From NCBI GenBank assembly GCA_016202645.1, contig JACQOF010000074.1, positions 1 through 43,827 on the forward strand: a stretch of 43,827 nt of DNA, given 5' to 3'. A model generated the notes under the pieces. The model was not told where the DNA came from. It made no database searches and was given only the letters and a program-made list of their open reading frames with translations. This document shows positions 3 to 30,950 of the stretch, one piece after another. Numbering within the stretch: position 1 is the first letter of the stretch; every line of letters starts with the position of its first letter. This DNA comes from a bacterium. Its GTDB lineage: Bacteria > Lindowbacteria > 2-12-FULL-62-27. The translations under genes were made by a program, and so were the position numbers.

Positions 3-1412
3 CAGGGCTGGACGATGGTGGGGCCGAACAAATCCGTACCGGCGGGGTGGAATTTAAAGAGCACGAGCGGGGGTCTGTCGACTGCCCCGAAGGTATATGT
101 CTGGAACGACGTGACGGACGTCTATGACGAGTCGACCGGCGACGCCGTGCGCGGACTTGCCTACTGGGTCAAGGATGCAACGGGCGGCCGGGTGTTCGTG
201 CCGTCGGACGGGTTCGGGTCCGCGTCCGAGACCGTTCAAGTCCGTCTGAAAACCGGCTGGAACCAGATCGCCAGCGGCCAGTATTTCTTCGTGAGCTGGG
301 ACTCGAGCGTGGTCTTCGACACCTCAAGCCAAAATGACACGGCCCTTCCGGCGTCCGAGCGCCTGACCGCCGAGCAGGCCGGCGCGTCGAATGTCCTTCA
401 GAATAAAGTCTACTGGTACACGGGTTCCAACTACGTCTACGGCCCCGCGAGCGAGACGTTCAGTCTGACAACTCTGCAACTGAAACCGATGGTCGGATTC
501 TGGCTCAACGTCACGACGGCCTGCACGATGTACGTTTACCCAAATCCCGCGGCGGCCGAAACTCATGCCACGGAAATCCTGACGCAATCCGCGAAATACT
601 CGAGCCTGGCTGCCGGCTACAAGCAGACCGGCCAAACCGGCAATGAGCAGAACTGGGCCGTCCAGCTTGTGGCGTCTTCGGGCGGCGTGACCGACTGGCA
701 GAATTACGTCGGCGTGAAACCGACGCTCGCCGAGCGCCGCGCCGCCGGCGCCTTGGAGGCTCCGGGCCTGGCGTCGGGTTATCTCACATTGGCCGTTCGG
801 CCCTCTCTAGGATCTGTATCCAGCAACGCGCAACCAGCATCCAGCACCGACGCCTGGATGGCGGCCAGCTACGCCGACCCGCAGTCCCCGGGCCACGCAT
901 GGGACGTCGTCCTCTCGACGGACCTCGGCGCCGCAACCCTGACGTGGGACAACGTCGACAACCTGCCGTCTGCCTACGAGGCGTATCTGATCGGCGCCCC
1001 GGGCGGCGCCGTGAATTTGCGAAATTCCGCCTCTCTCCCTTTCTCCCTTTCTCCCTCTCTCCCTGTCTCCCTGACCCTGGCCATCGGCTCCCCCGAATTC
1101 GTCGCCCCCTTCATCGCCGCGCCGCTCTCGAAGGAAAATACCTTCATCTACCCCAACCCCGGCCCGGACGACGCGACCGGGAACATGACCTTCAAGTACA
1201 ACCTCCCATCCGCCGCGGACGTCAGCCTGAAAATTTTCGACATGGGCGGCAAGCTCGTAAAGGAAATGAAAGGCTCCGGCATCGCGGGGTCGAACACCCT
1301 CACGTGGGACACCACGAACAAGCACGGCCAGCGCCTTGGGTCGGGCGTGTACATCTACAAGCTCGAGTCTGGCGGGACGACGCTGGTGGACAAGCTTGCC
1401 ATCGTGCGCTGA
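3..1412 (+). CDS. Secreted surface protein with FlgD/T9SS-like C-terminal sorting domain (5' partial)
   Basis: The reading frame is open to the left edge: the codons just before the first ATG (position 15) read QGWT, matching DKWTM in the homologous protein at 11147-14677, so the true start lies outside the window. The visible part has repeated beta-rich modules with the GWN motif (KTGWNQIASG) and aromatic-rich stretches. The last 90 residues (from NTFIYPNPGP to VDKLAIVR) form an FlgD-Ig/T9SS type A-like domain with the typical YPNP start, the SGVYIYKLESG turn and a basic end. Such domains direct export and surface attachment in T9SS bacteria; no T9SS component is visible here. Two short-word arrays lie inside the coding sequence (815-848 and 1029-1078). 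The last ~270 bp and the downstream repeat are nearly the same as at 14400-14840, a sign of duplication. Function beyond surface exposure is unknown. Confidence 0.85.
   Translation, partial: QGWTMVGPNKSVPAGWNLKSTSGGLSTAPKVYVWNDVTDVYDESTGDAVRGLAYWVKDATGGRVFVPSDGFGSASETVQVRLKTGWNQIASGQYFFVSWDSSVVFDTSSQNDTALPASERLTAEQAGASNVLQNKVYWYTGSNYVYGPASETFSLTTLQLKPMVGFWLNVTTACTMYVYPNPAAAETHATEILTQSAKYSSLAAGYKQTGQTGNEQNWAVQLVASSGGVTDWQNYVGVKPTLAERRAAGALEAPGLASGYLTLAVRPSLGSVSSNAQPASSTDAWMAASYADPQSPGHAWDVVLSTDLGAATLTWDNVDNLPSAYEAYLIGAPGGAVNLRNSASLPFSLSPSLPVSLTLAIGSPEFVAPFIAAPLSKENTFIYPNPGPDDATGNMTFKYNLPSAADVSLKIFDMGGKLVKEMKGSGIAGSNTLTWDTTNKHGQRLGSGVYIYKLESGGTTLVDKLAIVR
815..848 (+). repeat. In-CDS word array, 7-bp period
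   Basis: Consecutive 7-mers ATCCAGC, AACGCGC, AACCAGC, ATCCAGC encode the linker SSNAQPASST. The homologous linker of the protein at 11147-14677 carries an unrelated 8-bp word array (14065-14102). Confidence 0.6.
1029..1078 (+). repeat. In-CDS CT-rich word array, 8-bp period
   Basis: 8-mers of the form CTCCCTnT (n = T, T, C, G) end in CTCCCTGA and encode alternating Leu/Ser/Pro residues just before the sorting domain. On the other strand the word is AAAGGGAG with variants AGAGGGAG and ACAGGGAG. A second copy with a different word order is at 14299-14341. Confidence 0.75.
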
Positions 1413-1640
1413 GAATCAGTTGACAATTTCTCATTGGTGCAATGACAGATTGGTGCGATGCTCGCGGGGCCTGATCAATGGTCATTTCATCATTGCACCA
1501 ATGAGGAACGGTCAACGGATTCAGAAGCGTGCTGAATCGGTTGAAAATTGTTCATTGGTGCAATGACAGATTGGTGCAATGCTCGCGAGGCCCTGATCAA
1601 TGGTCATTTCATCATTGCACCAATGAGGAATGGACAACGG
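1413..1640. repeat. Family A inverted repeat array (two units)
   Basis: Two ~115-bp units follow the stop codon directly. Each has a left arm with ATTGGTGCAATGA words, a short variable core (ctcgcggggcctga or similar) and a right arm carrying the inverted words (TCATTGCACCAATG). A second variable spacer (agaagcgtgctgaatc) separates units. Related copies are at 2035-2254, 5722-5946, 14678-14841 and 17771-17879. Confidence 0.85.
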
Positions 1641-1663
1641 AATAAGGAAAAGCATACTCGTAC

Positions 1664-2026
1664 ATGAAAGGCGATGATTTGTCAGACCGATTTGTAGAGT
1701 TTGGCGATGCGGTGCTGACAGTAGTAGAAGGTCTGCCGGAGACAAAAACGGGCCGGCATATTGGCGAACAGCTCATGCGGTCCGGCACGTCCTGCGGCGC
1801 GAATTACGAGGAGGGCCGTGGCGCGGAATCGCGCGGGGACTTTGTTCATAAGCTGGGAGTAACCCACAAGGAACTTCGAGAGAGCCGCTTTTGGTTGAGG
1901 CTTATCCTCAAGCGAAAAATAACGAGAAACGGCGCGGTGGATGTGCTGGAGGAATGCGAGGAATTGTGCGCCATCATCGGGAAAAGCATAGCAACAGCAA
2001 GAACGAGAAAGAGGAGTGATTTGTAA
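1664..2026 (+). CDS. Four-helix bundle protein (23S-IVP/Avd-like family)
   Basis: This 120-residue protein has the signature of the TIGR02436 four-helix bundle family: a GRHIGEQLMRSGTSCGANYE segment, the EEGRGAES acidic motif, then HKLGVTHKELRESRFWL. Family members include proteins encoded in 23S rRNA intervening sequences and, more distantly, Avd, the pentameric accessory protein of diversity-generating retroelements that binds the reverse transcriptase and nucleic acid. It is small and charged and has no signal peptide, so it is probably cytoplasmic. An AAGGAAAAG stretch lies ~13 nt before the ATG. The gene sits between two family A repeat arrays (1413-1640 and 2035-2254) and is an isolated cistron between surface-protein genes. 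A paralogue at 10507-10875 is flanked by a different array family. No reverse transcriptase or rRNA gene is nearby, so its molecular role here is not known. Confidence 0.9.
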   Translation: MKGDDLSDRFVEFGDAVLTVVEGLPETKTGRHIGEQLMRSGTSCGANYEEGRGAESRGDFVHKLGVTHKELRESRFWLRLILKRKITRNGAVDVLEECEELCAIIGKSIATARTRKRSDL

Positions 2027-2034
2027 CGAGTGTT

Positions 2035-2488: not shown

Positions 2489-5400
2489 ATGACCCGATTT
2501 CTGACCGGCGCTCTGCGCCTGATATTCGCTGTTCTTCTGTTCAGCCAATGGCCAATAGCCAACAGCCAATGGCAAACCAGAGCGGAAGCGGCCGAGCCCA
2601 ACAAATACATCTCCTTCCAAGGGCAACTGAGCGACTCGACCGGTGCGCGGATCAACGGGAATGTTTCCGCGACGTTCAAGCTCTGGAGCGTGCCGACGGG
2701 CGGGACGGCGCTGTGGACGGAGGCGCAGACCATGGCGGCGGACAACGGCGTGACGAGCGCGACCCTCGGATCGGTGACGGGGCTGACCCTGCCGTTTGAC
2801 ACGCAGTACTGGCTGGGCGTGACGGTCGGATCGGACGCGGAGATGAGCCCGCGGATCAGGCTGGCGGCGGCGCCGTACGCGTTTACGGCGTACAGCCTCA
2901 CGGACAGCGCGCTGGCGCGGGGGACGTTGAAGGTGGCGGGTGCGGCGACGTTTTCCGATTCATTGATCGTGTCGGACACTGTCTTGTTCGTGAACAAGCA
3001 GACGGGCCGAGTCGCCACCGGCACATCGTCTCCGACGACGGCTCAATTGCATGTGGAGGGCCAGATTTATCTCCGAAGCAATGGCGGCGCGCAGATGACG
3101 ATTCTGAACTTGGACGCAACGGCCGGTTCCGCCGGCGCGGCGAGGGTTACGCTGGTTCCGCAAAATGCGGCAACCCAGCAGGACATTTGGGGAATTGACG
3201 GAGCGATAAGTCTTCGCACGGGCGGCGTCCCGGGTGTGGTGAGCGCGAGTGAACGCATCCGCATTTCATCCGCCGGCGCGGTTGGCGTCGGAACCGCCGC
3301 CCCAACCGACAGTCTTCACGTCGGCGGCCGCATCCTGATGGACACGAACACCCAGACGGCCGCGTCGGACGGCGCGATCCGGTGGTCAGGATCGGATTTC
3401 GAGGGGCGAAAAGCCGGATCGTGGGTGTCGCTCACGTCGGTGGGGACAGTGTCGCCAAGTTCCCTCTCGTCGGCCATTACGTCCGACAGCATCGCGGCGG
3501 ACGCGGTGACGTCGGCCAAGATCCTGGACGGCACGATAGCGAATGCGGATCTGGCCTCCGGGAGCTTTCCGAGCGTCACGGGCGTCGGTACGCTTGGGAC
3601 ATTGACCGTCTCCGGTACATCCGCCTTTTCCGATTCGGTGGTCGTGTCAGACACGGTTTTGGTCGTCAACAAACAATCGGGCAAGGTCGGTGTCGGCACA
3701 GCGGGGCCGGCCGGCTCCCTCCATGTCAAAGGCTCCAATACGTTATGGACAAACCCGCATGTTGAGATCGAGCATACAACAAGTGGTTCGTCCAAGATCA
3801 TGCAATCGTCTTCTGGACTTCTATTTCGGAATTTCAATCCAACGGGCACGAATGTGGCGTTTGATTTCAGGGACCCCACGCTCGACCTGTCGACGCTGAC
3901 AATCCTTGCCAATCGCAACGTCGGTGTTGCAACGGGGGCTCCGGCAGATAGTCTGCACGTGAACGGTACGTTGCGGGTCGAGGACACGATGGTGGTCGGC
4001 GACACGTGGTTGGTGGTGGACAAGAGCGGCCGGGTGGGGGTTGGGACGACGAGTCCGGCATATCCCCTTCATGTGAGCGGCGGCAACAGCCAGGTCCGAT
4101 TTGGTTCAAGCAATGCGGACGAGGGCGGGTATCTCATCAGCACCACGAACAACCAGGCTCTCGTGACGGGCGGCGGTTCGTGGAATGGAACAAACTGGAT
4201 CGCCAAATCGACCGAGTTTGGGTATATGGGAACCCAGAACGGTTCTGTGGTTTTCCAAGGCAACGACGGCCTGACGCCGGGCTCGTCCTTTACCCCCAAG
4301 TCCCTCATGCGAGTTGACGTCAACGGCAACGTCGGCATCCGCACGAGCGCGGCAACCCCCGCCGACAGCCTGCAGGTGGCCGGCCGGATTCTGATGGACA
4401 CCGTGACCGGCACGGGCGGCGCAGATGGCGCGATTCGGTGGTCAGGATCGGATTTCGAGGGGCGCAAGGCCGGGTCGTGGGTGTCGCTCACGGCGGGCGG
4501 TATTGGGGGCGACTCTTGGACGATCAACCATGCCACGAACGTGATCTCCAGCGCCAATAGCGGTAAAGTCTCGCTCGGATCGCTGACCGTTTCCGGCGTC
4601 TCCAGCTTCTCCGACTCGCTCATCGTGTCGGACACGGTATTGGTGGTCAACAAACAGAGCGGCAACGTCGGCGTGGGGACGGCTTCGCCAGCGTTTCCGC
4701 TGTCGTTTCCCAACACGCTTGGCGACAAGATCGCGCTCTACGGCGCGTCGGGCAACAATTTCGGGCTGGGCGTCCAGAGTTTCCTCATGCAGATCCACAC
4801 CTCCGGCAGTAACGAGGACATCGGATTCGGCTACGGGCAGAGCGGAAGTTTCTCGGAAGTCATGCGCATCAAAGGCACGGGCAACGTCGGCATCGCGACG
4901 GCCGCTCCGGCCGACAGCCTCACCGTGAACGGGTCCCTCACGGCCGACTCGCCGACCCTGGTGGTTCATTCCGGCAACAACCGGATCGGCGTCCGCACGG
5001 ACAATCCGCGCGCGCCGGTGGAAATTAAAAACGGCGTGCTGGGCTGGCAGGATCATATCCTTTTGAGCGGCTCCAGCGCCGGCACCGCATACTGGATCGG
5101 GCGGAACGACGACGAGGACGGAACCGCCGAGCCGACGGACCGGCTGGCCTTCGGCACCGGTACCACGGCCGGGACAAACGCAGCCATGCATATCTCCTCC
5201 AACGGCAACATCTCCATCGGCGACACCCCCGCCCCCGAGAAACTGGCCGTATTTGGATCGATGATGGTCGATTCGCCGACATTTTACGTCGACGCGGTGA
5301 ACAATCGGGTCGGCATCGGCACCTCCGCGCCCGACACGACCTTTTCCGTCAACGGCGAAGCCTCCAAAGCCGGCGGCGGGACGTGGAACACGTTTTCCGA

Positions 5401-5710
5401 CGGGCGGCTCAAGGACATCAACGGTGAATTCACGGCGGGCGCGGAGGAACTCATGAAGCTCCGCCCCATCCGCTACCGCTACAAGCGGGACAATCCGGCG
5501 GGCATCCGCGAGCACGCCGAGCATGTCGGTTTGGTGGCGCAGGAAGTCCAGTCGGCGATCCCGGAAGCGGTCTACGCGAACAACCAGGGATACCTCATGC
5601 TCAAAAGCGATCCGATCATATGGGCGATGCTGAACGCGATCAAGCAGCAGCAGGCGGAGATCGCGACCCTTCGCGCGGAAATGGAAGTTCTGAGGGGAGC
5701 GGCGCGTTAG
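2489..5710 (+). CDS. Exported tail-fibre-like repeat protein with C-terminal S74 chaperone domain
   Basis: This is a 1073-residue protein. The start is fixed by GGGAGGAA at 2473-2480, 8 nt before the ATG. A signal peptide (hydrophobic LIFAVLLF, likely cleavage near AEA/AEP at residue ~34) precedes ISFQGQLSDSTG, a domain common at the N-terminus of such surface proteins. The body is made of recurring cassettes: VGVGTASP-like beta turns with DSLHVNG, VVSDTVLVVNKQSG, and WSGSDFEGRKAGSWVSL. The last ~110 residues (FSDGRLKDI..., VGLVAQEVQSAIPEAV, then a coiled coil) are a Peptidase_S74 intramolecular chaperone, which drives trimerisation of fibre proteins and often cleaves itself at the Ser of SD-x-RLK; that Ser and Lys are present. 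A trimeric cell-surface fibre is likely. Its closest relative is the next gene; they share near-identical blocks. The signal peptide contains family B repeat words (2542-2579). Confidence 0.88.
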   Translation: MTRFLTGALRLIFAVLLFSQWPIANSQWQTRAEAAEPNKYISFQGQLSDSTGARINGNVSATFKLWSVPTGGTALWTEAQTMAADNGVTSATLGSVTGLTLPFDTQYWLGVTVGSDAEMSPRIRLAAAPYAFTAYSLTDSALARGTLKVAGAATFSDSLIVSDTVLFVNKQTGRVATGTSSPTTAQLHVEGQIYLRSNGGAQMTILNLDATAGSAGAARVTLVPQNAATQQDIWGIDGAISLRTGGVPGVVSASERIRISSAGAVGVGTAAPTDSLHVGGRILMDTNTQTAASDGAIRWSGSDFEGRKAGSWVSLTSVGTVSPSSLSSAITSDSIAADAVTSAKILDGTIANADLASGSFPSVTGVGTLGTLTVSGTSAFSDSVVVSDTVLVVNKQSGKVGVGTAGPAGSLHVKGSNTLWTNPHVEIEHTTSGSSKIMQSSSGLLFRNFNPTGTNVAFDFRDPTLDLSTLTILANRNVGVATGAPADSLHVNGTLRVEDTMVVGDTWLVVDKSGRVGVGTTSPAYPLHVSGGNSQVRFGSSNADEGGYLISTTNNQALVTGGGSWNGTNWIAKSTEFGYMGTQNGSVVFQGNDGLTPGSSFTPKSLMRVDVNGNVGIRTSAATPADSLQVAGRILMDTVTGTGGADGAIRWSGSDFEGRKAGSWVSLTAGGIGGDSWTINHATNVISSANSGKVSLGSLTVSGVSSFSDSLIVSDTVLVVNKQSGNVGVGTASPAFPLSFPNTLGDKIALYGASGNNFGLGVQSFLMQIHTSGSNEDIGFGYGQSGSFSEVMRIKGTGNVGIATAAPADSLTVNGSLTADSPTLVVHSGNNRIGVRTDNPRAPVEIKNGVLGWQDHILLSGSSAGTAYWIGRNDDEDGTAEPTDRLAFGTGTTAGTNAAMHISSNGNISIGDTPAPEKLAVFGSMMVDSPTFYVDAVNNRVGIGTSAPDTTFSVNGEASKAGGGTWNTFSDGRLKDINGEFTAGAEELMKLRPIRYRYKRDNPAGIREHAEHVGLVAQEVQSAIPEAVYANNQGYLMLKSDPIIWAMLNAIKQQQAEIATLRAEMEVLRGAAR
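2542..2579 (+). repeat. Family B words inside the signal peptide coding sequence, copy 1
   Basis: CAGCCAA, TGGCCAA, TAGCCAA, CAGCCAA, TGGCAAA follow each other without gaps and encode QWPIANSQWQ at the end of the signal peptide. They are the same 7-mers as the right arm of the array 75 bp upstream. Confidence 0.8.
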
Positions 5711-5721
5711 ACAATAATTGA

Positions 5722-5946
5722 GCAATGGTCATTTCATCATTGCACCAATGAGGAAATGGTCAACGGATTCCGCGGCATCGGTTGAAAATTGTTCATTGGT
5801 GCAATGACAGATTGGTGCAATGGTCAGGAGGCTCTGATCAATGGTCATTTCATCATTGCACCAATGAGGAATGGTCAACGGATTCAGAAGCGGGTCGAAA
5901 CGGTTGAAAATTGCTCATTGGTGCAATGACAGATTGGTGCAATGGT
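5722..5946. repeat. Family A inverted repeat array (two units)
   Basis: Two units with a 116-bp period (5726 and 5842) begin 12 bp after the stop of the fibre gene. Spacers differ (cgcggcatcgg; agaagcgggtcgaaacgg; gtcaggaggctctga), while the hairpin arms are almost unchanged. Confidence 0.85.
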
Positions 5947-5952
5947 CAAGAA

Positions 5953-6083: not shown

Positions 6084-6158
6084 GCTATTGGCTGATTGGC
6101 TAATAGCTAACGGCTAATAGCTAACAGCAAACAGCTATTAGCCAACAGCAAATAAACC
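6084..6158. repeat. Family B word array, copy 2
   Basis: Words built on TTGGCTn and nAGCTAA, with CTATTGG, CTGATTGG, CTAATAGCTAA and, on the right, CTATTAG, CCAACAG, form an imperfect inverted array. It ends just before the Shine-Dalgarno GGGAGG of the gene at 6176. Confidence 0.75.
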
Positions 6159-6175: not shown

Positions 6176-9100
6176 ATGACTCGATTCGCTGAAGGTATTT
6201 CCCGACTTGTTGTCGCTTTTCTCATGTTTGGCCTATGGCCAATAGCCAACAGCCAATGGCAAACAGTAGTGGAAGCGGCCGAGCCCAACAAATACATTTC
6301 GTTCCAAGGACAGCTGAGCGACTCGACCGGGGCGCGGATCAACGGGAATGTTTCCGCGACGTTCAAGCTCTGGAGCGTGCCGGCCGGCGGGACGGCGCTG
6401 TGGACGGAGGCGCAGACTCTGGCGGCGGACAACGGCATCACAAGCGCGACGCTCGGATCGGTGACGGGGCTGACGTTGCCGTTTGACACGCAGTACTGGC
6501 TGGGCGTCACGGTGGGAACGGACGCGGAGATGAGCCCGCGGATCAGGCTGGCGGCGTCGCCGTACGCGTTTACGGCGTACAGTCTGACGGACAGCGCGCT
6601 GGCGCGGGGGACGTTGACGGTGGCGGATACGGCGGTAATCAACGGATGGGTCGGCATCGGCACGGCGAGTCCCGCCGCCCGGTTGGACGTGGCGGGTGGT
6701 TCCTCCGTCGGCGGCGAAGCCGCCCTGATCGGGGGCCCGCTGGGGGTGGGGAAAGGCGGCGTCGTTGGCGGACGGCTGAGTTTGTTCAGCACCACAGGTC
6801 GCCAATTAACGCTGGAGATGTCCGATACCAATGACGCGGTTATCTCAAATAGCTTTGGCAAAATTCGGGTCACGCCGGTCACGGACTTCATCGTTTCGGA
6901 CACGCTGTTGGTCGTGAACAAGCAGAACGGCAGGGTCGGCATCGGCACGGCCAGTCCTGCTCAGAATCTGGATGTGGCCGGCACCGTGCAGGCCACGGCG
7001 TTTGTGGGGGATGGATCGGGACTAACGGGCCTATCGACGAGCGCCGCTCCGGACACGGACTGGACCGTCGACGGCTCGGGGAATGTGTACAGAACCACGG
7101 GAAACGTCGGCATCGGGACGGCGTCTCCGTCTGACAGCCTTCATGTGATGGGCAGGATACGAATGGATGGAGGGCCGGATGACCAGATGATTGACTTCAT
7201 CAAAAGCGGCACAATAGGGTCTTCAAGCAGTCCGGACACGTTTAGGATCCACGGCGCCGGTGGTATTCATCTCCGAACCTTTGGCAGTTCTTGGGCTGAC
7301 CGCATGAACATCACAAGCACTGGCAACGTCGGCATCGGGGATACGACACCGGGGGCCAAGTTGCGCGTCGCGGGCGATGTTTCTGTTTCTGATTCGCTGG
7401 TGGTGGGGGACACGCGGTTGGTTGTATTAAAGAGCGGCAACGTCGGCATCGGGACGGCGGCTTCAGCTTATCCATTGGACGTGCAGAACAGCGTCTCCGC
7501 CGGCGCCGCGTGGCCACAGCTTCGCCTCACGAACACTGCGGATTATATCTCAGGCGTTTCACTGGTCCGCAGCAGTGGAGCCGCCGGCGGCGAGTGGGTC
7601 GTTTCCCGGAGCAACAGCGCGGGCGCCGGAGGATCCCAGCCCGATGCATTTACGATTGGAGTGAACGGTGTCGGCAACTACCTCAGCATCACCACTGCCG
7701 GCAATGTCGGAGTAGGAACTCAGAGCCCGGCGAACATACTCTCCGTGGCGGGAAACTCGAATTTCGCAGGCAACGTCGGCATCGGGACGACGGCGCCCGG
7801 GGACAGTCTGCATGTCTCCGGCCGGATTCAAATGGACACGAACGCCGCGACAAGCGCGGCGGACGGCGCGATGCGGTGGTCGGGATCGGATTTCGAGGGG
7901 CGAAAAGGCGGATCGTGGGTGTCGCTCACGTCGGTTGGGACGGTGTCGCCAAGCTCCCTCTCGTCGGCCATTACGTCCGACAGCATCGCGGCGGACGCGG
8001 TGACGTCGGCCAAGATATTGGACGGCACAATCGCGAACGCGGATCTGGCCTCCGGGAGTTTTCCAAGCGTCACGAGCGTCGGCACGCTCGGCTCGCTGAC
8101 CGTCTCCGGCGTCTCCAGTTTTTCAGATTCCCTGATTGTGTCGGACACAGCGTTGGTGGTCAACAAGCAAAGCGGCAAAGTCGGCGTCGGGACCGCGAGT
8201 CCCAACATCGGCAGTTTCACCGGCGTGGAGATTTCGGCCCCCGCTGCCGGCTTGGCGCTGACGTCAACCGACGGCGGCGGCCGGCGGTTCATCATCGGAT
8301 CGACGACGGGCAACGCGGGGCTTTACGTCCGGGACGAAACCGCCGGGTCGTATCGGATGATGCTGGCCGACTCCGGGTCGCTCGGCATCGGAACGATCGG
8401 CCCGGACCGGATGCTGGACGTGCTCGACGCCGGCAACCCGCAGGTGCGTCTCACCCAGGCTGATGCGACGGCTTACGCGGACTTGCACATGAGGAGCACC
8501 GGCGATCTCGTGATAAACGTCGACGGCGTTGCGGATCAACTCGTCCTCGACAATGGCGGCAACGTCGGCATCGGGACGACGAGTCCGGGGGATAGTCTGC
8601 ACGTGAACGGAACATTACGCGTCGAGGACACGATGGTGGTGGGCGACACGTGGCTGGTTGTGGACAAGAGCGCCAAAGTCGGCGTCGGTACCGCGAGTCC
8701 TTCCGAGCAATTGCACGTCAAGGGGACGTCCCATAACAGGCTGAAGGTCGAGGGGGGGACCGGGAGTTCCGTCGGCATGAACATGGTTGAAGGCGCCAAC
8801 AGCTCGTTTGTCCAGGTCGAAAATGGAAACCGGATGGGATTCTATTCCGGCGATCAGACCACGGCCGACATGGTGCTGACCTATGGCGGCAACCTCGGGA
8901 TCGGTACAGGCACCCCGTCTGACAGTCTGCACGTGGTTGGCCGCGCGAGGATTTCCGACACGCTGACCGTCGGGGATTCCTACATCGTGGCAGGCCCGGC
9001 GGGCGTTGGCATCCGGAACCTGAGTCCCTCCGGCATCCTTGACATCAGAACTGGCAACGAGTACGAGCTTCGGTTTTCTGGAAATTTCATCGCCAACATC

Positions 9101-10369
9101 AACCATGCCAACGCCGGCACGCCCATGTTCGTGAGCACCAACGGCGCCCAGCTTTCGCTGGGCAGCAACACCGACGCCGAGCATCTCAACATCCTGAACG
9201 GCAACGTCGGCATCGGCACGACGGCTCCAGGGGATAGTCTGCACGTGAACGGTACGTTGCGGGTCGAGGATACGATGGTGGTCGGCGACACGTGGCTGGT
9301 GGTCGATAAAAACGGGAATGTCGGCGTCGGGACCACCACGCCGCTTGGCAATCTCACGGTCGCCAGTTCCGGCGCCACCCGCGAACTGATGGTTCTGCGC
9401 AGGAACGACTCGACCACAAAATGGTCCATCGGAAATATCACCTCCAACTTCAACCTCTACGGGTTTACAGGCGCCACCTCGGCCAGCACGGACCTCAAAC
9501 TGGCCGTGACGTCCGCCGGCAACGTCGGTATCGCGACGGCCGCTCCGGCCGACAGCCTCACCGTGAACGGATCCTTCACGGCCGACTCGCCGACTTTGGT
9601 GGTCCACTCGGGCAACGACCGCGTCGGCGTCCGCACGGACAATCCGCGCGCGCCAGTCGAAATTAAAAACGGCGTCTTGGGCTGGCAGGACCACGTTCTT
9701 TTGAGCGGGTCCAGCACCGGCACCGCATACTGGATCGGGCGGAACGACGACGAGGACGGAACCGCCGAGCCGACGGACCGGCTGGCCTTCGGCACCGGAA
9801 CGACCGCGGGAACGAACGCAGCCATGCACATCTCCTCCAACGGCAACATTTCCATCGGCGACACCCCCGCTCCCGAGAAACTGGCCGTGTTTGGATCGAT
9901 GATGGTCGATTCGCCGACATTTTACGTCGACGCGGTGAACAATCGGGTCGGCATCGGCACCTCCGCGCCCGACACGGACTTTTCCGTCAACGGCGAGGCC
10001 AGCAAATCCGGCGGAGGGACTTGGAACACGTTTTCAGACGTGCGCTTGAAGGACATCAAAGGGCAGTTTGCGGCGGGTTCGGAAGCGCTCATGAAGATCC
10101 ACCCGGTCCGGTACAGCTACAGGAAAGACAACGGCGCGGGCCTCCGGGATCATTCCGAAAAGGTTGGGCTCATCGCGCAGGAAGTCGCCGAAGCGATCCC
10201 GGACGCGGTCTACTCGAACAATCAGGGCTATCTCATGCTCAAAAGCGACCCGATCATCTGGGCGATGTTGAACGCGATCAAGGAACAGCAGGTCCGGATG
10301 GACGCGCAGTCGGTTGAAATCGAGGCGCTGAAGGAGGAGATCGGTGTCTTGAAGCGGGGGAATGAGTAG
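6176..10369 (+). CDS. Exported tail-fibre-like repeat protein with C-terminal S74 chaperone domain (long paralogue)
   Basis: This 1397-residue paralogue of the preceding gene has a GGGAGG Shine-Dalgarno 12 nt before the ATG. The order is: signal peptide with the same WPIANSQWQT segment, the ISFQGQLSDSTG domain, about a dozen VGIGTASP/DSLHVNG cassettes, and an S74 chaperone (FSDVRLKDIKG, VGLIAQEVAEAIPDAV) ending in a short coiled coil. The cassette NGTLRVEDTMVVGDTWLVVD occurs twice here (near 8610 and 9250) and once in the first paralogue (near 3963). The stretch from ~9520 to 10020 is almost identical to 4890-5390, whereas the central parts differ in number and content of cassettes, as expected from recombination between repeats. 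The S74 Ser and Lys are kept. A cell-surface or appendage fibre is the likely role; the ligand is unknown. Confidence 0.88.
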   Translation: MTRFAEGISRLVVAFLMFGLWPIANSQWQTVVEAAEPNKYISFQGQLSDSTGARINGNVSATFKLWSVPAGGTALWTEAQTLAADNGITSATLGSVTGLTLPFDTQYWLGVTVGTDAEMSPRIRLAASPYAFTAYSLTDSALARGTLTVADTAVINGWVGIGTASPAARLDVAGGSSVGGEAALIGGPLGVGKGGVVGGRLSLFSTTGRQLTLEMSDTNDAVISNSFGKIRVTPVTDFIVSDTLLVVNKQNGRVGIGTASPAQNLDVAGTVQATAFVGDGSGLTGLSTSAAPDTDWTVDGSGNVYRTTGNVGIGTASPSDSLHVMGRIRMDGGPDDQMIDFIKSGTIGSSSSPDTFRIHGAGGIHLRTFGSSWADRMNITSTGNVGIGDTTPGAKLRVAGDVSVSDSLVVGDTRLVVLKSGNVGIGTAASAYPLDVQNSVSAGAAWPQLRLTNTADYISGVSLVRSSGAAGGEWVVSRSNSAGAGGSQPDAFTIGVNGVGNYLSITTAGNVGVGTQSPANILSVAGNSNFAGNVGIGTTAPGDSLHVSGRIQMDTNAATSAADGAMRWSGSDFEGRKGGSWVSLTSVGTVSPSSLSSAITSDSIAADAVTSAKILDGTIANADLASGSFPSVTSVGTLGSLTVSGVSSFSDSLIVSDTALVVNKQSGKVGVGTASPNIGSFTGVEISAPAAGLALTSTDGGGRRFIIGSTTGNAGLYVRDETAGSYRMMLADSGSLGIGTIGPDRMLDVLDAGNPQVRLTQADATAYADLHMRSTGDLVINVDGVADQLVLDNGGNVGIGTTSPGDSLHVNGTLRVEDTMVVGDTWLVVDKSAKVGVGTASPSEQLHVKGTSHNRLKVEGGTGSSVGMNMVEGANSSFVQVENGNRMGFYSGDQTTADMVLTYGGNLGIGTGTPSDSLHVVGRARISDTLTVGDSYIVAGPAGVGIRNLSPSGILDIRTGNEYELRFSGNFIANINHANAGTPMFVSTNGAQLSLGSNTDAEHLNILNGNVGIGTTAPGDSLHVNGTLRVEDTMVVGDTWLVVDKNGNVGVGTTTPLGNLTVASSGATRELMVLRRNDSTTKWSIGNITSNFNLYGFTGATSASTDLKLAVTSAGNVGIATAAPADSLTVNGSFTADSPTLVVHSGNDRVGVRTDNPRAPVEIKNGVLGWQDHVLLSGSSTGTAYWIGRNDDEDGTAEPTDRLAFGTGTTAGTNAAMHISSNGNISIGDTPAPEKLAVFGSMMVDSPTFYVDAVNNRVGIGTSAPDTDFSVNGEASKSGGGTWNTFSDVRLKDIKGQFAAGSEALMKIHPVRYSYRKDNGAGLRDHSEKVGLIAQEVAEAIPDAVYSNNQGYLMLKSDPIIWAMLNAIKEQQVRMDAQSVEIEALKEEIGVLKRGNE
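6230..6264 (+). repeat. Family B words inside the signal peptide coding sequence, copy 2
   Basis: GGCCTATGGCCAA, TAGCCAA, CAGCCAA, TGGCAAA encode LWPIANSQWQ in the signal peptide of the long fibre protein. The words match those upstream of the gene and those in the first paralogue. Confidence 0.8.
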
Positions 10370-10378: not shown

Positions 10379-10490
10379 GAGAAAGCAGCAAAGAGCAAAG
10401 CGGCAATGGTCAATTATCAAAGAATGCAGACCCCAATGGGTCGGTTGAGACTTGATCGTTGTTGCTTTGATGCTTTGACAGTTTCTCAGA
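10379..10490. repeat. Family D word array, left copy
   Basis: The left arm has AGCAAAG words (gcagcaaagagcaaagc) then caatggtcaattatcaaag; the right arm is inverted (gttgttgctttgatgctttg). It lies between the fibre gene and the four-helix bundle gene. The same words recur after that gene. Confidence 0.8.
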
Positions 10491-10506: not shown

Positions 10507-10875
10507 ATGAAGGGTGACGATGTCTCTGATCGCATGGTGGCGTTCGGAGCGACTGTTCTGGATCTGGCGGAGGCTCTTCCCCAAACGCGGTCCGGACGGC
10601 ATGTGGCCGATCAGGTCATGCGGTCGGGAACGTCCTGCGGCGCGAACTTTGAGGAGGGGCGCGGCGCGGAATCACGAGCGGATTTTGTGCACAAGCTGTC
10701 GGTGACGCACAAGGAGCTTAAGGAAACCCGATACTGGCTTCGCGTGGTGGTGAAGAGAAAAATGTCAGACGGCGTCGCGGTCGAGCTTCTTGAGGAGTGC
10801 GAAGAACTCTGCGCGATTATTGGGAAGAGCATATCGACTGCCAAAGGCGGCCGTAAAGAATCGGTTGAGACTTGA
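10507..10875 (+). CDS. Four-helix bundle protein (23S-IVP/Avd-like family), second copy
   Basis: This 122-residue paralogue of the protein at 1664-2026 has GRHVADQVMRSGTSCGANFE, EEGRGAES and HKLSVTHKELKETRYWL, plus an ELLEECEELCAIIGKSI C-terminal helix. AAAGG lies ~11 nt before the ATG. The family folds as an antiparallel four-helix bundle and often forms oligomers; Avd of diversity-generating retroelements belongs to the wider group. The gene is flanked by two copies of the family D array. The right copy overlaps the end of the gene: the last residues (ESVET) and the stop codon are read from array sequence, so the array has become part of the protein. No reverse transcriptase, template repeat or rRNA is nearby. 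Function unknown; association with repeats is seen directly. Confidence 0.9.
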   Translation: MKGDDVSDRMVAFGATVLDLAEALPQTRSGRHVADQVMRSGTSCGANFEEGRGAESRADFVHKLSVTHKELKETRYWLRVVVKRKMSDGVAVELLEECEELCAIIGKSISTAKGGRKESVET

Positions 10876-11061
10876 CCGTTGTTGCTTTGTTGGTTTGAAA
10901 ATTGATCCGGAGGAAGTTTTCGGAGAAAGCGGCAAAGAGCAAAGCAGCAAAGAGCAAAGCAGCAAAGAGCAAAGCGGCAATGGTCAATGGTCAAAGAATG
11001 CCGAACACAAAGGGGTCCTTTGAAACTTGATCGTTGTTGCTTTGATGCTTTGTTGGTTTCA
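10859..11061. repeat. Family D word array, right copy
   Basis: It starts inside the four-helix bundle gene (gaatcggttgagacttga), continues with inverted words and then AGCAAAG, AGCAAAGC repeated three times, caatggtcaatggtcaaag, a core, and the inverted arm ttgttgctttgatgctttg. It duplicates the array at 10379-10490. Confidence 0.82.
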
Positions 11062-11146: not shown

Positions 11147-14100
11147 ATGAAACGAATTAAACTCATGGCTCTTACGGCGCTGATTCTCGCGGGAATTGGC
11201 CTCATCGCCTATGCCCTTCTGACTTCGACCAACTACCAGTACACCGAAACCGTGCTGGTGACCGGGGGCGATACCGCCGCGTCGGTGAATTACCGGTATA
11301 CCGCCGGGCTGGGCCAGCCCGCGGCCTCGGATAGCGTCGCGAGCGCCAACTACGTGATGCGGCCGGGGTTTTATCACGAGATCACCGCCGCGCATACCGG
11401 GTCGATCTGGTATGTGAACGCGTCGACCGGGCACGACACCCTTGGAAACGGAACGTCCTCCAGTCCCTTCAAGACCATCCAGCGCGGCGTCAACTCCGCC
11501 GCGGCCGGCGAGACCGTTCAGATCGCGGCCGGGACCTACACCGAGACGACCATTCTCATCACGACGTCCAACATCGCGCTCGTCGGCGCCGATTCGCGCA
11601 CCACCATCATCGACCCGCCCGGCGCCAACACCGTCACGAATCTTTACGGGATCCTCGCGCAGAATGTGACAGGGCTCGTCCTCAAAAATCTCGGTGTGAC
11701 CGGCGCCTACACCGGCGTGCGGTTCGACAACGTCGACTTCTCTACCGTCACCGGCGACAGTTTCGGATCAAACAGCCGGCACGGCATCGAGCTGGTGAAC
11801 GGGTCCGACACGAACACCATCACCCAGTGCGACCTCAGCCACAACGTCGTCGGGTCCGGGTTCGGGATCGAAATCAACGGCAGCGCCTTCAACACCCTTT
11901 CAAACAGCATCCTCAACGCCAACGGGCAGTACGGCGTCTACACATCGAGCGGCAACGACAACACCGTCTCGGGAAACACGGTGAATTCCAACTCGAGCTA
12001 CGGAATGTTTCTCCTGAACAGCGCCCGGCTCATCGTCAAGAACAACACCGTCACCGGCGGCGCCTCGCAGGGCATCCGGCTGAACAATGGATCGAACTGC
12101 GTCTTCACCGGAAACACCGTGAACTCCAACCAATACGGCATCGTGATCGCCGGCCCAAGCGCGCGCGTGACGAACAACGTCATGTCGCAAAATTCCATCT
12201 ACGGCCTCTGGGTCATCAACGGCTCGAACCTCTACGCCGCGCAGAACACCATCACCGACAACACCCAATACCAGATTTCCTTCGACCCTCTCGGCCCGAC
12301 AAACTCCCTCGTCGAGAAGAACAACTTCAAGACTTCCACCACCAACCCCGACAGCATCGTCTACAACCGGTCCGACACCATCCAGACCGTGACCCGGAAC
12401 TGGTGGGGCACGACCGACGAGGCCGTCATCCGGACCAAAATCTTCGACACCGCCGCAAGTCTGAAAACCACATTCAAACCCTATCGCCTCGCCCAGGTCG
12501 ACACCGCCGCCGGCGCCGATACCGGCGCGCCGATGGAACCGCAGGCCGTCGCGGCGAACACGTCGATTGCAGGCGCCGTGCAGATCACGTGGACCAATCC
12601 GGCCTTCGACGAGGACACCGCAACCCAGACGGCCTTCGGCGGCGTCGACGTCTACCGCCTCGTCAACGTCCCCGACTCGGCCAACTGGGTCGGCCAGCTC
12701 CTCGTAAGCCTCACGGGGACCCCGACCTCCTACACCGACGCCGCCGTGAGCGTCGGAAACACCTACTATTACCGCCTGTCGTCGCACGACACCGCGACGC
12801 TCGTCAATTCCAGTTTTCTCACCGACACCGTCTCGGGTTCGCCCGTCTCCGGCAGCGCCGGCGATTCGGTCCTCGTCGACAGCGGCAGCCACCAGATCAT
12901 CTCCAACGGCGGAAACGCCACGCTGTCGATGGACGTGAAGGATTCGGCCTCCGGCACGCTCATCACGAGCGCGAGCGTCAGCGTCACCGCGGTTTTCAAC
13001 GGCGCCGCCGTCTCCGCGCTCGACACCACCCTCACCACCGACACCGCCGGCCGCGCGCGGGTCGTGCTGAAACTCTCGCAGGGCGAAGGCGTCTACGTCT
13101 TCACCGCGTCCCCGGCCCTGAGCGGCGGCCAGAAGGCGCGCTTCGTCGTCTACACCGACCGCCGGCCGGTACAGGCCGACAAGTGGACGATGTTCGCGCC
13201 GTTCAAGAAACCCGTCTCCGGCGTGAACGGCATCACCGTGAACGGGACCCCCGGCCCGGGAAGCGTCATCCTGTATTGGTACGACCCGGCGGCCACAGCG
13301 GTTACGACCTTCGGCCAGTACAAGTCCGTGAGCGGCCAGGCCAGCCCCAACAGTTCCACCGCCGGAACCTTCTCGGATTTTCAGTCCGGCCGCGCCTACT
13401 GGGCGAAATCCGTCGGCGCCGCCGTGACGATCGGCGCGGCGTCCGGCGCCTCCGACGTTCCCGAGACCGTGTACTATCAGGTCCACGTCAAGGAAGGCTG
13501 GAACATGGTCGGCAATCCATTTCCGTTTTTCATCGACTGGGAGCAGGACGTTTTTTTCGACACGAATCCTCTGGATACGGAAGCCCTGCAGTGCATCACG
13601 ACGGCGGCCGCCGAGACTGCCGGGGTTCTCACCAACAAAATCTACTGGCGGGACGAGAGCGTACTGAGCGGAAACGTCGGCTACCGCTACGGCCCATCGA
13701 CTGCCACGTCGACCGAGACCACCGTCCAGCTCAAACCCTGGGCGGGATTCTGGGTCTACCTGCCACCGGCCCCGGCGGTCTGCGACACCGGTTGTACGCT
13801 TCTCTTTTCCGGTTCCATCAAACGCATCCCGCAGACCGTGCCGATCCAACAGCAGGCGCCTTCTTATCTGACAGAAACGGAGAAAGGGAGAGCCGGCGAG
13901 CCGGAGAATTGGGTCATTCAGATCAAGGCAGTCGGGCAGAACGGCGCAAGGGATGATTACAACTTCGTCGGCGTCGCGCCCGGCGCGAAGGAAGGCTACG
14001 ACCGGCATGACGCCTACAAGGCGCCGCCGATTGGCGATTATGTGCAGGTTGGCGTCCGTCCTTTGAGTGTATCGGAGTATCGGAGTATCGGAGTATCGGA

Positions 14101-17754: not shown

Positions 17755-17770
17755 GGGAGAATGTGGATGG

Positions 17771-17879
17771 CAATGGTTATTTCGAGATTGCACCAATGAT
17801 AAATGGTCAACGGATTCCACCGCATCGGTTGAAAATAGTTCATTGGTGCAATGACAGATTGGTGCAATGGTTGGAGATT
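17771..17879. repeat. Family A inverted repeat, diverged copy
   Basis: A single unit turned inside out: right-arm words first (gagattgcaccaatgat, aaatggtcaacgg), spacer attccaccgcatcgg, then the left arm (ttcattggtgcaatgaca). It is 43 bp from the surE start. It shows more substitutions than the copies in the first 15 kb. Confidence 0.75.
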
Positions 17880-20889: not shown

Positions 20890-20975
20890 TATCCTCCCCC
20901 CCGGAGGGGGAGGCAGGGAGGGGGGGACAATTCTCAGTAACCCCCCATCCATCTTCCCCCTCAAGGGGGGAAGAG
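20890..20975. repeat. Family J G/C-run array
   Basis: Runs of C and G (tcctcccccccggaggggg, agggaggggggac, ttccccctcaaggggggaag) form inverted arms between the convergent HD-GYP and phosphoglycerate mutase genes. A second J array lies beyond the other end of the mutase gene. Confidence 0.75.
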
Positions 20976-21684: not shown

Positions 21685-21721
21685 AGCCCCCCCTCCCAAC
21701 CTCCCCCTCCGGGGGGGAGGA
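21685..21721. repeat. Family J G/C-run array
   Basis: ccccccctcccaacctcccc followed by ctccgggggggagg, an inverted G/C-run pair in the divergent gap between gpmA and the gene at 21752. Confidence 0.7.
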
Positions 21722-21751
21722 TGAAATTAATATCGCTGAGGAAAGCAGAGG

Positions 21752-22850: not shown

Positions 22851-22973
22851 AACAATCACCACAGAGGACACAGAGTCCGAACACGGAGATCACAGAGGAA
22901 GCGGTTCGGGTTCTCATACCCCAGGCAATCTCTGTGTCCTCTGTGAACCGCCTCTGTGCCCTCTGTGGTGAAT
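22851..22973. repeat. Family F word array (CACAGAGnn), inverted arms
   Basis: The left edge is AACAATCACCACAGAG. Left-arm words are CACAGAGGA, CACAGAGT, CACGGAGAT, CACAGAGGA. The right arm read on the other strand gives CACAGAGGG, CACAGAGGC, CACAGAGGA. The array ends 12 bp before the metH start. A second F array is at 30822-30950 with the same left edge. Confidence 0.85.
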
Positions 22974-27269: not shown

Positions 27270-27300
27270 CAGACCCTTTCGTAGCGATTCGGTTCCCGCC

Positions 27301-27399
27301 GTCATTCCCGCGAAAGCGGGAATCCAGTCTGCTTTGCGATTGGTCGGGATGCCCGCTGGAGTTTACCCCGTGCTGGATTCCCGCTTTCGCGGGAATGAC
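27301..27399. repeat. Long palindromic repeat (dRS3-like ends)
   Basis: A 27-bp perfect inverted repeat: GTCATTCCCGCGAAAGCGGG begins the left arm (27301-27327) and the mirror copy is at 27373-27399. The arms themselves contain ATTCCC-N8-GGGAAT, the form of the Neisseria dRS3 repeat. The core starts with gctttgcgattggtc, shared with the element at 31295. Confidence 0.88.
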
Positions 27400-27450
27400 A
27401 GACACTGGACGGGCATGACAACCTGAATAGCTACACCCCCACCCCTTCTA

Positions 27451-27491
27451 CAATATCAATTGACAATTGACAATCGCCAATTGAGAATGCC
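27451..27491. repeat. Family G word array, 7-bp period
   Basis: CAATTGA, CAATTGA, CAATCGC, CAATTGA, GAATGCC in tandem just upstream of the gene at 27517. It may place AT-rich promoter-like sequence before that gene. Confidence 0.7.
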
Positions 27492-27516: not shown

Positions 27517-28023
27517 ATGGCGTCTGAACACGAAGAAATCGATCCGATCAAAAGCAACCCCGACAGCCACAAGGCCATCGGCGTTGCGCTCATGATTCTG
27601 GTTTTGGTGGGTCTCTCCTATGCCCTCACCCGGAACGGCGCGTTGGCCGGCGCTCTCGGCAGTCAGACCCTGGACCTCATCACGCCGGACTTCCGGCATG
27701 TCTCGGCCGAGTATGATCCGAAACACACGCCGAAAATCGACTGCCCCGACACCGTCAAAGCCGGCGAGTGGTTCGACGTCACCGTCACCATCGGCGCGGG
27801 CGCCATTCATCCGTCCCTGGTCGAGCATCATGTGCGGTGGATCGCGATTTACAAGGACGACGTGGAGCTCTCCCGGGTCTACCTGCATCCGGTCCAGAGC
27901 TATCCGAGGGTCACCTTCACGATCGCGCTGGAGGATTCCTGCGATCTCATCGCGATGGAAGAACCAACGCACGCGGCTCCGCGCAAGTCGTCAAAACGAA
28001 TTACGGTCGTGAAGCCAAACTAG
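27517..28023 (+). CDS. Membrane-anchored superoxide-reductase-like (desulfoferrodoxin) domain protein lacking the Cys ligand
   Basis: A 168-residue protein with one membrane helix near the N-terminus (IGVALMILVLVGLSYAL, residues ~21-37) followed by a SORL fold: PKHTPKI (His70, with Lys69), the AGEWFDVTVTIG strand, HPSLVEHHVRWIAIY (His98, His104/105), VTFTIALEDS and AMEEPTHAAP. In superoxide reductase the iron is held by four His and one Cys in a CNxHG motif. Here that place reads EPTH, so the axial Cys ligand is missing while the His residues are kept. It may bind a metal without superoxide reductase activity. GGAGGTGA stands 5 nt before the ATG. The gene is flanked by two 7-bp word arrays (families G and H). 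Confidence 0.78.
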   Translation: MASEHEEIDPIKSNPDSHKAIGVALMILVLVGLSYALTRNGALAGALGSQTLDLITPDFRHVSAEYDPKHTPKIDCPDTVKAGEWFDVTVTIGAGAIHPSLVEHHVRWIAIYKDDVELSRVYLHPVQSYPRVTFTIALEDSCDLIAMEEPTHAAPRKSSKRITVVKPN

Positions 28024-29678: not shown

Positions 29679-29736
29679 GTCATTCACGCGAAAGCGGGAA
29701 TCCAGAATCTGGGTCCCCGCTTTCGCGGGGATGACA
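29679..29736. repeat. Palindromic repeat, short version
   Basis: GTCATTCACGCGAAAGCGGG to the mirror CCCGCTTTCGCGGGGATGAC with a short core. It lies 54 bp before the truncated rho-like gene. Confidence 0.85.
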
Positions 29737-29789
29737 GATGTAGAGAGATTTCTAGCCCACTACCCTAACCGGAAAGGTTACCTCAGCTC

Positions 29790-30821
29790 TTGATGAACGA
29801 ATCCAGACACGGCCCTCGCCGTGCCCAATTTCAGGGGAATATGCGCAGGAAATCTGTGGACGCCGGAGCGGGTTCCGGCCGGAGGGATGGTCGTCCGTAC
29901 CGGCAGGGGCCGCGGCAGGCGGCGCCGGCGCCCGTCGTCTCCGCCCAACTGGCGGAACTTCGCAGGGCATTCGAACAACTGACCCCCACGCACCCGGACC
30001 AGCGTCTCCGGCTGGAGACGAAGCCGCAGGAGAAGCTCGGCCGGTGGATGGACCTGATCACGCCGATCGGCAAGGGCCAGCGGTGCCTCATCGTGGCGCC
30101 GCCCAAGACCGGAAAGACCACGCTCCTGAAAACCGTTTCCAAGGCCCTCACCATCAATCATCCCGACGTCATTCAGCTGGTCCTGCTCGTGGACGAGCGG
30201 CCCGAAGAGGTCACCGATTTTCAGAGGTCGGTCCAGGCCAAGGTCGTGGCGTCGTCCTCGGACAAGAGCACCGAAAATCACGTCGAAAAAACCCGCGGTG
30301 TGATCGAGGAAGCCATACGGCTGACCCTCGACGGAAAAGATGTTCTCGTCCTCCTCGACTCCATCACGCGCCTCGCGCGCGCCTTTAACCTTGAAACCAA
30401 TTCCAACTCGAAAACCCTCTCCGGCGGACTCGGCGCCGGCGCCATGCAGGAACCCCGGCAGTGTTTCGGCGCGGCGCGGACCATCGAGCTCGGCGGAAGC
30501 CTCACCGTGGTGGCGACGGCGCTGGTCGACACGGGCTCCCGGATGGATGACGTGATTTTTCAGGAATTCAAAGGCACCGGCAACATGGAGTTGGTCCTCT
30601 CGAGGGACCTCTCGGAAAAACGGATGTTTCCGGCGATCCAGATCAACGAGTCGGGCACACGGAAGGAAGAACTCCTCTACCCCAAAAAACAATACCCGGC
30701 CGTGGTGTCCCTCCGGCAGATCGTCGCCAGCCTTTCACCGGAGGACGCTTTCCGGATGCTCGACAAGGTCCTGGGGGATTTCGAGACGAACGAGGATCTG
30801 CTGAGTCAGCTCAAACCCTAA
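29790..30821 (+). CDS. rho: Rho-type ATPase lacking the N-terminal RNA-binding domains
   Basis: A 343-residue protein whose residues ~58-343 match the motor part of transcription termination factor Rho: FEQLTPTHPDQRLRLE, PIGKGQRCLIVAPPKTGKTT (Walker A, ~103-111), LLVDERPEEVTDFQRSV, VLLDSITRLARAFN (Walker B), GGLGAGAMQEPRQCFGAART, and FKGTGNMELVLSRDLSEKR (R-loop region). The N-terminal domain and the cold-shock-like primary RNA-binding domain (about the first 130 residues in E. coli Rho) are absent. In their place are ~50 Arg/Gly/Gln-rich residues. An in-frame TAA at 29766 rules out a longer frame. The start is TTG 29790 or ATG 29793. It could be a second, specialised Rho, a truncated one, or a case where the basic tail replaces the RNA-binding domain. 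The reading frame is otherwise intact, so it is not an obvious pseudogene. Confidence 0.85.
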   Translation: MMNESRHGPRRAQFQGNMRRKSVDAGAGSGRRDGRPYRQGPRQAAPAPVVSAQLAELRRAFEQLTPTHPDQRLRLETKPQEKLGRWMDLITPIGKGQRCLIVAPPKTGKTTLLKTVSKALTINHPDVIQLVLLVDERPEEVTDFQRSVQAKVVASSSDKSTENHVEKTRGVIEEAIRLTLDGKDVLVLLDSITRLARAFNLETNSNSKTLSGGLGAGAMQEPRQCFGAARTIELGGSLTVVATALVDTGSRMDDVIFQEFKGTGNMELVLSRDLSEKRMFPAIQINESGTRKEELLYPKKQYPAVVSLRQIVASLSPEDAFRMLDKVLGDFETNEDLLSQLKP

Positions 30822-30950
30822 ACAATCACCACAGAGTACACGGAGCCTCTTCACTGAGGTCACAGAGTTTTTTTAAGTTTAACGAATCTGAATGCCGTAA
30901 AGGAGCCCCTCCGTGATCTCTGTGAACAACTCTGTGTCCTCTGTGGTGGG
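30822..30950. repeat. Family F word array, second copy
   Basis: It starts at the last base of the rho-like stop with AACAATCACCACAGAG, exactly the left edge of the copy at 22851. Words include CACAGAGTA, CACGGAGCC, CACTGAGGT and, inverted, CACAGAGGA, CACAGAGTT, CACAGAGAT, CACGGAG. The core has a run of T. Confidence 0.85.

Follow-up and report, generated by a model that had tools for sequence, protein, structure and literature searches.

The contig JACQOF010000074.1 of a Lindowbacteria genome bin (2.9 Mb in 146 contigs, 82% complete) was analysed over its entire length of 43,827 nucleotides, and this whole stretch, contig C48 of the bin, is called the window below. It carries two genes of the four-helix bundle protein (FHBP) or 23S rRNA-intervening sequence protein family, both of which are flanked by inverted arrays of short tandem words and pass the family cut-offs (33.8 bits for PF05635 and 24 bits for TIGR02436). 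We found that word-array elements with one of two partner genes, FHBP (class I) or GxxExxY (class II), occur across many bacteria. The features of the window are listed below by position; the genes are on the + strand, and no strand is assigned to the arrays. Loci, genomes and contigs are designated L, G and C, and ORF stands for open reading frame.

1030-1073: CTCCCTTT/CTCCCTCT 8-mer array (CTCCCT-NT family), in frame within ORF 15-1412; its word is that of the arms of the FHBP gene of contig C35 (L002/L194)
1413-1641: upstream arm region of the first FHBP gene, made of two ~122-bp units in which two CAATG-type arrays face each other as an inverted pair
1664-2026, + strand: first FHBP/23S rRNA-intervening sequence protein gene (PF05635 50 bits; TIGR02436 77 bits)
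2039-2254: two units of ~115 bp with CAATG words; downstream arm region of the first FHBP gene
2391-2462: GCCAANN 7-mer element, left arm 2391-2421, inverted right arm 2433-2462
2544-2569: GCCAANN array within the N-terminal signal region of ORF 2489-5710
5719-5948: CAATG-type units of ~115-122 bp, gene-less
6099-6152: GCYAANN 7-mer array upstream of ORF 6176-10369
6229-6256: GCCAANN array in the N-terminal region of ORF 6176-10369
10380-10478: GCAAAG-word inverted mini-element directly upstream of the second FHBP gene
10507-10875, + strand: second FHBP gene (PF05635 61 bits; TIGR02436 82 bits)
10926-11052: GCAAAG-word inverted mini-element downstream of the second FHBP gene
14069-14101: array of four GTATCGGA words within ORF 11147-14677, of a family of GTATCGG elements dispersed in the bin
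14294-14334: CTCCCTTT 8-mer array within ORF 11147-14677, in frame at the linker of its C-terminal domain; the homologous linker in a related genome has other words
About 14678-14840: CAATG-type inverted units, read by eye
16729-16844: putative class II element with CACGAAC-NNN 10-mers, inverted arms 16729-16764 and 16809-16844
17760-17875: CAATG-type inverted unit, read by eye
18764-18795: AAATCCG 7-mer array at the start of ORF 18729-19739; its core word is that of the arms of the FHBP gene of contig C125 (L004)
22857-22970: putative class II element with CACAGAG 9-mers and an inverted right arm, gene-less
27457-27488: CAATTGA 7-mer array upstream of the desulfoferrodoxin-like gene 27517-28023
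30826-30950: putative class II element with CACAGAG words and an inverted right arm, gene-less, read by eye

Word Arrays of the Window

The window was scanned for periodicity at periods of 7-10 and compared with 25 order-3 Markov simulations of itself. At a score of at least 11 it contained 14 arrays (simulated mean 0.48, maximum 2), and in the stricter tier, at a score of at least 14, it contained nine (simulated mean 0.0, maximum 0). TRF recovered the same arrays. Clearly, the short-word arrays described in the original prediction, which had been made from the sequence alone, are real, and they do form unrelated families, each with fixed and variable columns. The count of at least ten families was slightly generous, as nine are clear and others, such as the CCAGCAA array at 820-846 (TRF score 33), are weak. 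The described layout of a left arm, a core and an inverted right arm applies to most of the intergenic arrays, but several other arrays lie in frame inside ORFs. The CAATG/CATTGCAC family forms units of 115-122 bp at five sites (1413-1641, 2039-2254, 5719-5948, ~14678-14840 and 17760-17875).

FHBP Genes Lie between Inverted Arrays

Five FHBP matches above the family cut-off were found in the bin, two of them in the window. The other three also lie between inverted arrays, with distinct words: AGGGA-type heptads (L001), AGGGAG octads (L002, on contig C35, whose own word is written as AGGGAGAA) and AAATCC heptads (L004). Among 310 sampled genomes, 107 had a PF05635 match (E <= 1e-10). We surveyed the flanks of 137 FHBP loci from about 100 random genomes (draft assemblies) for arrays with a score of at least 10 within 300 bp, and took control windows from the same loci. 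An array was present on at least one side of 114 of the 137 loci (83%) vs 30 of 179 control windows (17%), and on both sides of 63 loci (46%) vs four controls (2%; Fisher 7e-23); the period was equal on both sides in 58 of these 63. One row of the resulting table is spurious, as a long run of N in the downstream flank of L109 was scored as a period-6 array. When the upstream flank was compared with the reverse-complemented downstream flank, the two matched in 66% of the 137 loci, compared with 2% across loci and 1% in controls. A PF05635 ORF between complementary ends, which is a feature of the 23S rRNA intervening sequence (IVS), is thus found here as well. No insertion within 23S rRNA was seen, either at the window genes, which lie between protein genes, or at 20 FHBP loci that were scanned for rRNA (0/20), and the rRNA IVS as the only setting of these genes was rejected on that account. 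A G-rich polarity of the arms (137 vs 25) was discarded as evidence, because array-free upstream flanks were equally skewed (25 vs 3).

Nearly every FHBP locus has its own word, and even the FHBPs within one genome (G041) differ in it (TGGTTCC, CGTAGGT, GGCNTTA, GTNGTAT and ATTTTAG). The commonest period is 7 (128 of 177 arms), followed by 8 and 9, and the arm length peaks at 4.5 units (44/147). The period clusters on the FHBP tree (121 columns, with many unresolved forks), requiring 20 changes vs a shuffled mean of 26.4 and minimum of 22 (0/2000 shuffles). The similarity of words declines with FHBP distance (Mantel 0/999): similar words occur in ~30% of the FHBP pairs separated by <0.8 substitutions per site, over a baseline of ~0.6%, and some are shared across genomes (AGCTNTA by L043 and L062; ATTTT-G by L026 and L128). 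Clearly, the inverted arms are linked to the gene, with one word per locus, and both the period and the word track the protein. The structure entries of two sequence relatives of FHBP, 2gsc and 2rld, contain five chains each, and FHBP relatives are described as homopentamers in work cited by PMC4990558.

FHBP elements recur inside CRISPR operons (cas6-cas4, cas10-cmr3 and cas1-cas4; L313, L314, L315 and L078/L110) of cyanobacterial plasmids and other genomes. Two FHBP pseudogenes of genome G262 (L048 and L061), with an in-frame stop and AGGCT heptads, adjoin CRISPR arrays of the same repeat; this pair was abandoned as proof of mobility, because duplication of the CRISPR flank may explain the segment that they share. 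Genome G010 contains many opposite-facing pairs of FHBP-like fragments 100-200 bp apart (L137, L138 and L352-L356). They are large palindromes, each half with part of an FHBP gene, and their dispersed copies are 73-96% identical.

GxxExxY Genes Lie between Arrays of Longer Words

The CACAGAG and CACGAAC arrays pointed to a second gene, GxxExxY (PF13366/TIGR04256, of the PD-(D/E)XK superfamily), which in G206, G069 and G271 is enclosed by such arrays or adjoins them. PF13366 was found in 50 of 231 genomes, with two copies in the bin. Arrays accompanied 62% of 48 GxxExxY loci vs 12% of controls, and matching inverted arms were found in 75%, compared with 0 in controls and 18% across loci, a background that is higher than for FHBP because class II words are less diverse. 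With few exceptions the period of the arms is 8-10; period 7 occurred in none of 45 arms vs 128 of 177 for FHBP. Since CACAGAG and CACGAAC arrays flank GxxExxY genes elsewhere, we placed the window elements with these words in class II as probable gene-less members, an assignment made by word and period with no adjoining gene.

Elements Are Inserted, Dispersed and Copied without Their Gene

Three pairs of related loci differ in the presence of an FHBP element (L155/L152, L315/L317 and L313/L319). In Desulfoferrobacter suflitae (L155) an element of ~0.5 kb lies directly between two genes, and Desulforhabdus sp. TSK (L152) lacks it, with flanks 94.5% and 92.4% identical. In Picosynechococcus PCC 7003 an FHBP element with AGGAGATA words separates cas10 and cmr3, and in PCC 7002, with flanks 89-91% identical, cas10 and cmr3 have no FHBP element between them. 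In Anabaena sp. 90 an FHBP gene with a long ACAGGTG/ACAGGGA array lies between cas6 and cas4, and Dolichospermum UHCC 0315A has no FHBP at this site (flanks 98.3% and 99.2% identical), although the latter is not a bare empty site, because an unrelated palindromic repeat fills the gap. In addition, the DUF6079 gene of L141 and L088 has in-frame array inserts that are missing in ten relatives, which also have no FHBP in the stretches compared.

Copies with fixed ends are dispersed within genomes. Genome G055 has four FHBP elements of ~440 bp that are 96-99% identical, start at one common left edge and are surrounded by unrelated sequence outside that edge. In a 677-kb sample of the bin, from which all its array statistics were derived, 61 arrays (score of at least 14) used only a few words. 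All eight inverted AGGGAG elements sampled there, including the FHBP-bearing one, have exactly 4 + 4 words and two distinct inner ends. By eye, the order of the variable columns tends to be conserved at each of the two ends (A-G-A-A next to AGTC, and G-A-x-x next to AGG), so that much of their variation is inherited from a parent element; the variable columns of the two arms are not mutually complementary. Gene-less arrays of the window share words with FHBP elements of the bin, namely CTCCCTTT at 1030 and 14294 (L002) and AAATCCG at 18764 (L004). Because relatives have filled and empty sites, four dispersed copies occur in one genome and in-frame inserts lie at protein linkers, the arrays are parts of insertion elements, which disperse and have gene-less counterparts with the same words. 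The original prediction of a process that writes words at gene borders thus survives as insertion, but the process is not the one that it named. Class I elements encode FHBP only, and class II elements encode a protein of the PD-(D/E)XK nuclease superfamily (PF13366).

Different Words at the Same Site

The C-terminal domain that contains the window array at 14294 has homologues in the bin and in two genomes of the same family. Its linker has CTCCCTTT in six copies of the bin and AAAATCC/T in six copies of G001; of the remaining copies, some have other words and some have no array. Two of these copies, L338 in the bin and L344 in G001, are orthologues by the tree (support 100/98) and have different words at one linker. 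Likewise, L141 and L088 differ in the words at the same DUF6079 linkers, each having those of its own FHBP arms, and FHBP elements with different words occupy the same gene junctions in different genomes (atpA-atpD region, carA-carB and moxR-DUF58). Such differences mean either repeated re-entry of a site or replacement of its word. The site that an FHBP element with AAAGCTA words occupies in a relative has, in Pseudanabaena sp. ABRG5-3 (L318, 1285-1320), a single array of ~4 AATTACG words and no gene.

Variable Columns Are Not Adenine-Specific

The original prediction took the variable columns of several families to fit A-to-N changes, the hallmark of a diversity-generating retroelement (DGR), whose reverse transcriptase and Avd would write such changes into the words. 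The AGGGAG-AN column of the bin does look A-directed (A 47, G 20, T 4, C 1), but the AAATCC-N column never has A (G 12, T 9, C 4, A 0). Over 171 FHBP-linked arrays, 10.0% of A columns vs 7.7% of the other columns were non-consensus (odds ratio 1.3), and G>A changes were nearly as frequent as A>G (81 vs 95, with the polarity of changes not fixed). In two pairs of copies the arms changed faster than the cores, as a DGR would have it: 11 of 79 arm sites vs 2 of 380 gene sites differed in L048/L061, and four substitutions in 115 arm sites plus one 7-base gap vs 0 in 351 gene sites in L130/L131. In L130/L351 the arms changed only about twofold faster than the core.

FHBP is distantly related to Avd, but the Avd model NF033474 gave at most 22 bits (20-22 for L001 and L002) vs a cut-off of 80, and no match to the two window FHBP genes. 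Two RVT_1 genes were found in the bin, both on contigs other than the window. One encodes a group II intron maturase (TIGR04416, 385 bits). The other (L008, G000:C106:112484-112867) encodes a reverse transcriptase-like protein of 557 aa with HEAT repeats, which matches RVT_1 and several reverse transcriptase models weakly. Neither was identified as the DGR type, and no DGR-type reverse transcriptase was found in the bin, which is 82% complete.

Other Repeats in the Window

The signal regions of two giant S74-peptidase ORFs (2489-2580 and 6176-6270) contain the same SQWPIANSQWQ-like peptide, encoded by GCCAA words. A separate dispersed family of palindromic repeats, CGTCATTCCCGCGAAAGCGGGAATCCAG ... 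CTGGATTCCCGC..GGGAATGAC, occurs at 27295-27400, 29681-29740 and 31295-31365; repeats of the CGTCATTCCCGCGAAAGCGGGAATCCAG type also occur in L182 and nested inside the word-array FHBP element of L004 (1333-1410). C/G-run repeats, CCTCCCCCNCCGGAGGGGGAGG, lie at both borders of one gene (20890-20975 and 21688-21722).

A Model of Word-Array Elements

We propose, with a probability of about 0.6, that the arrays are the arms and gene-less derivatives of small insertion elements with an FHBP or GxxExxY gene, and that FHBP binds the words of class I and lets these elements spread. In class I, two inverted arrays of 7-9-bp words, usually with 4-5 words each, would enclose an FHBP (PF05635/TIGR02436) gene; in class II, inverted arrays of 8-10-bp words, usually with about three words, would enclose a GxxExxY (PF13366) gene. 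Each family of elements would have its own word. FHBP most likely binds the words, and the elements most likely spread with it. The FHBP ring may contact the fixed bases of 4-5 successive words and pair the two arms, upon which host replication or repair would copy the element, and in trans its gene-less copies with the same word, to other sites, probably via a single-stranded hairpin and possibly with a catalytic partner. The insertions that survive would be those that fall between the stop codon of one gene and the start codon of the next or that keep the frame at a protein linker, and the word would drift along with the protein.

Several points weigh against this model. Binding, excision and transposition were not observed in what is a computational analysis, and to our knowledge FHBP has no catalytic site. 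No array was detected at 17% of the FHBP genes, in a sample biased toward high-scoring matches, and the class II link comes from only 48 loci with less diverse words and a cross-locus background of 18%. Reading of the junctions in L152/L155 and L317/L315, which are among few clean pairs, revealed no target-site duplication. An FHBP partner was not found for the GCCAA, GTATCGG and GGTAACC families of the bin, in an assembly that is 82% complete and with partners of the latter two not specifically sought. GCCAA arrays were found only in the bin and G202, and the FHBP matches near two of them are the window's own gene. No AAATCC-matching FHBP was found among the G001 loci examined, and a hot spot that is entered several times could likewise give one site different words.

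A further step, which we offer tentatively and consider doubtful, would be that FHBP and GxxExxY read, and perhaps rewrite, genome-wide sets of words as a transposase-free class of mobile elements. The protein would then set the length and spacing of the words, and all arrays of one word within a genome would stay in step; orthologous sites of related genomes would thereby come to have the word of the genome in which they lie.

Alternative Explanations

Somewhat less probable still is that the arms act as RNA, with FHBP binding the words of the transcript, the elements serving as processing or translation switches in operons, and mobility being incidental. This would suit elements that lie exactly between stop and start codons within operons (cas, atp, carAB and moxR). 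It would also suit the 23S IVS of Coxiella, in which tandem GACAGAT heptamers, variable in number among strains, lie just upstream of the S23p ORF and RNase III excises the IVS (PMC4990558). Many arrays, however, lie within coding frames or on one arm only, and neither the variable columns of the two arms, which lack mutual complementarity, nor the rRNA-free FHBP loci fit a role in RNA.

The reverse order of events, with arrays arising first as fragile or slippage-prone sites on which FHBP or GxxExxY genes land later, is improbable. In the bin, gene-less arrays outnumber gene-bearing ones, and the ABRG5-3 array without FHBP could be such a site. This order leaves unexplained that the period and the word follow the protein tree, that the periods differ between two unrelated protein families, and that relatives have neither gene nor arrays at a site.

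Ordinary replication slippage, which would make each array a local microsatellite-like repeat with no tie to a protein, is very unlikely. One heptad indel separates the recent copies L130 and L131, and some cyanobacterial plasmids have very long arrays, as slippage would produce; but slippage accounts neither for the same word being inverted on both sides of a gene (66% vs 1-2%), nor for the 4 + 4 units of all sampled AGGGAG elements, nor for the same few words dispersed through a genome and the link to a protein. Slippage alone was rejected because of the inverted-arm and fixed-unit results. A DGR is the least probable explanation of all, and was rejected because the reverse transcriptase type, the Avd score and the substitution spectrum all fail.

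Significance and Comparison with Known Systems

For decades, intergenic tandem words of 7-10 bp have been reported from bacteria without an explanation. FHBP (S23p/IVP) was found here in about one third and GxxExxY in about one fifth of random genomes, and neither family has an established function. The link between word and protein gives both the repeats and the two families a testable role, and it predicts a partnership that can be read from sequence in terms of protein clade, word length and word. It also explains puzzling in-frame inserts and interruptions of operons, including CRISPR operons. In our literature searches, limited to open PMC papers, we found none linking tandem words to FHBP or GxxExxY proteins.

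The elements resemble DGRs in that the DGR protein Avd is a distant homologue of FHBP, but differ from them in that no DGR reverse transcriptase and no adenine-specific change were found. Rickettsia palindromic elements are palindromic repeats inserted in frame in protein-coding genes, and we know of no partner protein for them. The elements described here are likewise inserted in frame in such genes, but as word arrays, whereas those of Rickettsia are single palindromes. Cyanobacterial short tandemly repeated repetitive (STRR) sequences are tandem heptamer repeats. As in cyanobacteria and Beggiatoaceae, the heptamers found here are tandem, lie between genes and comprise several words per genome. 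The text of the paper on the TAACTGA heptamer repeats of Beggiatoaceae has no mention of four-helix, S23 or intervening-sequence proteins (PMC4679880). In contrast to the elements described here, the cyanobacterial and Beggiatoaceae repeats were reported without a partner protein.

REPIN-RAYT systems consist of dispersed short inverted repeats and a partner gene, encoding a TnpA-REP/Y1 HUH nuclease, that is flanked by the same repeats. Our elements resemble them (PMC3116915) in having short inverted repeats dispersed in the genome and a partner gene flanked by the same repeats. However, the partners found here are FHBP or GxxExxY and not TnpA-REP/Y1 HUH proteins, with no REP or HUH search made, and the ends are tandem 7-10-bp words, whereas a REPIN end is one palindromic REP.

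As in the 23S rRNA IVS of Leptospira and Coxiella (PMC4990558), a PF05635 ORF lies inside an inserted segment. In contrast to the IVS, the elements described here occupy the space between protein genes or sit in frame inside such genes, both of their arms are word arrays, the word differs from element to element, and gene-less copies with the same word are dispersed.

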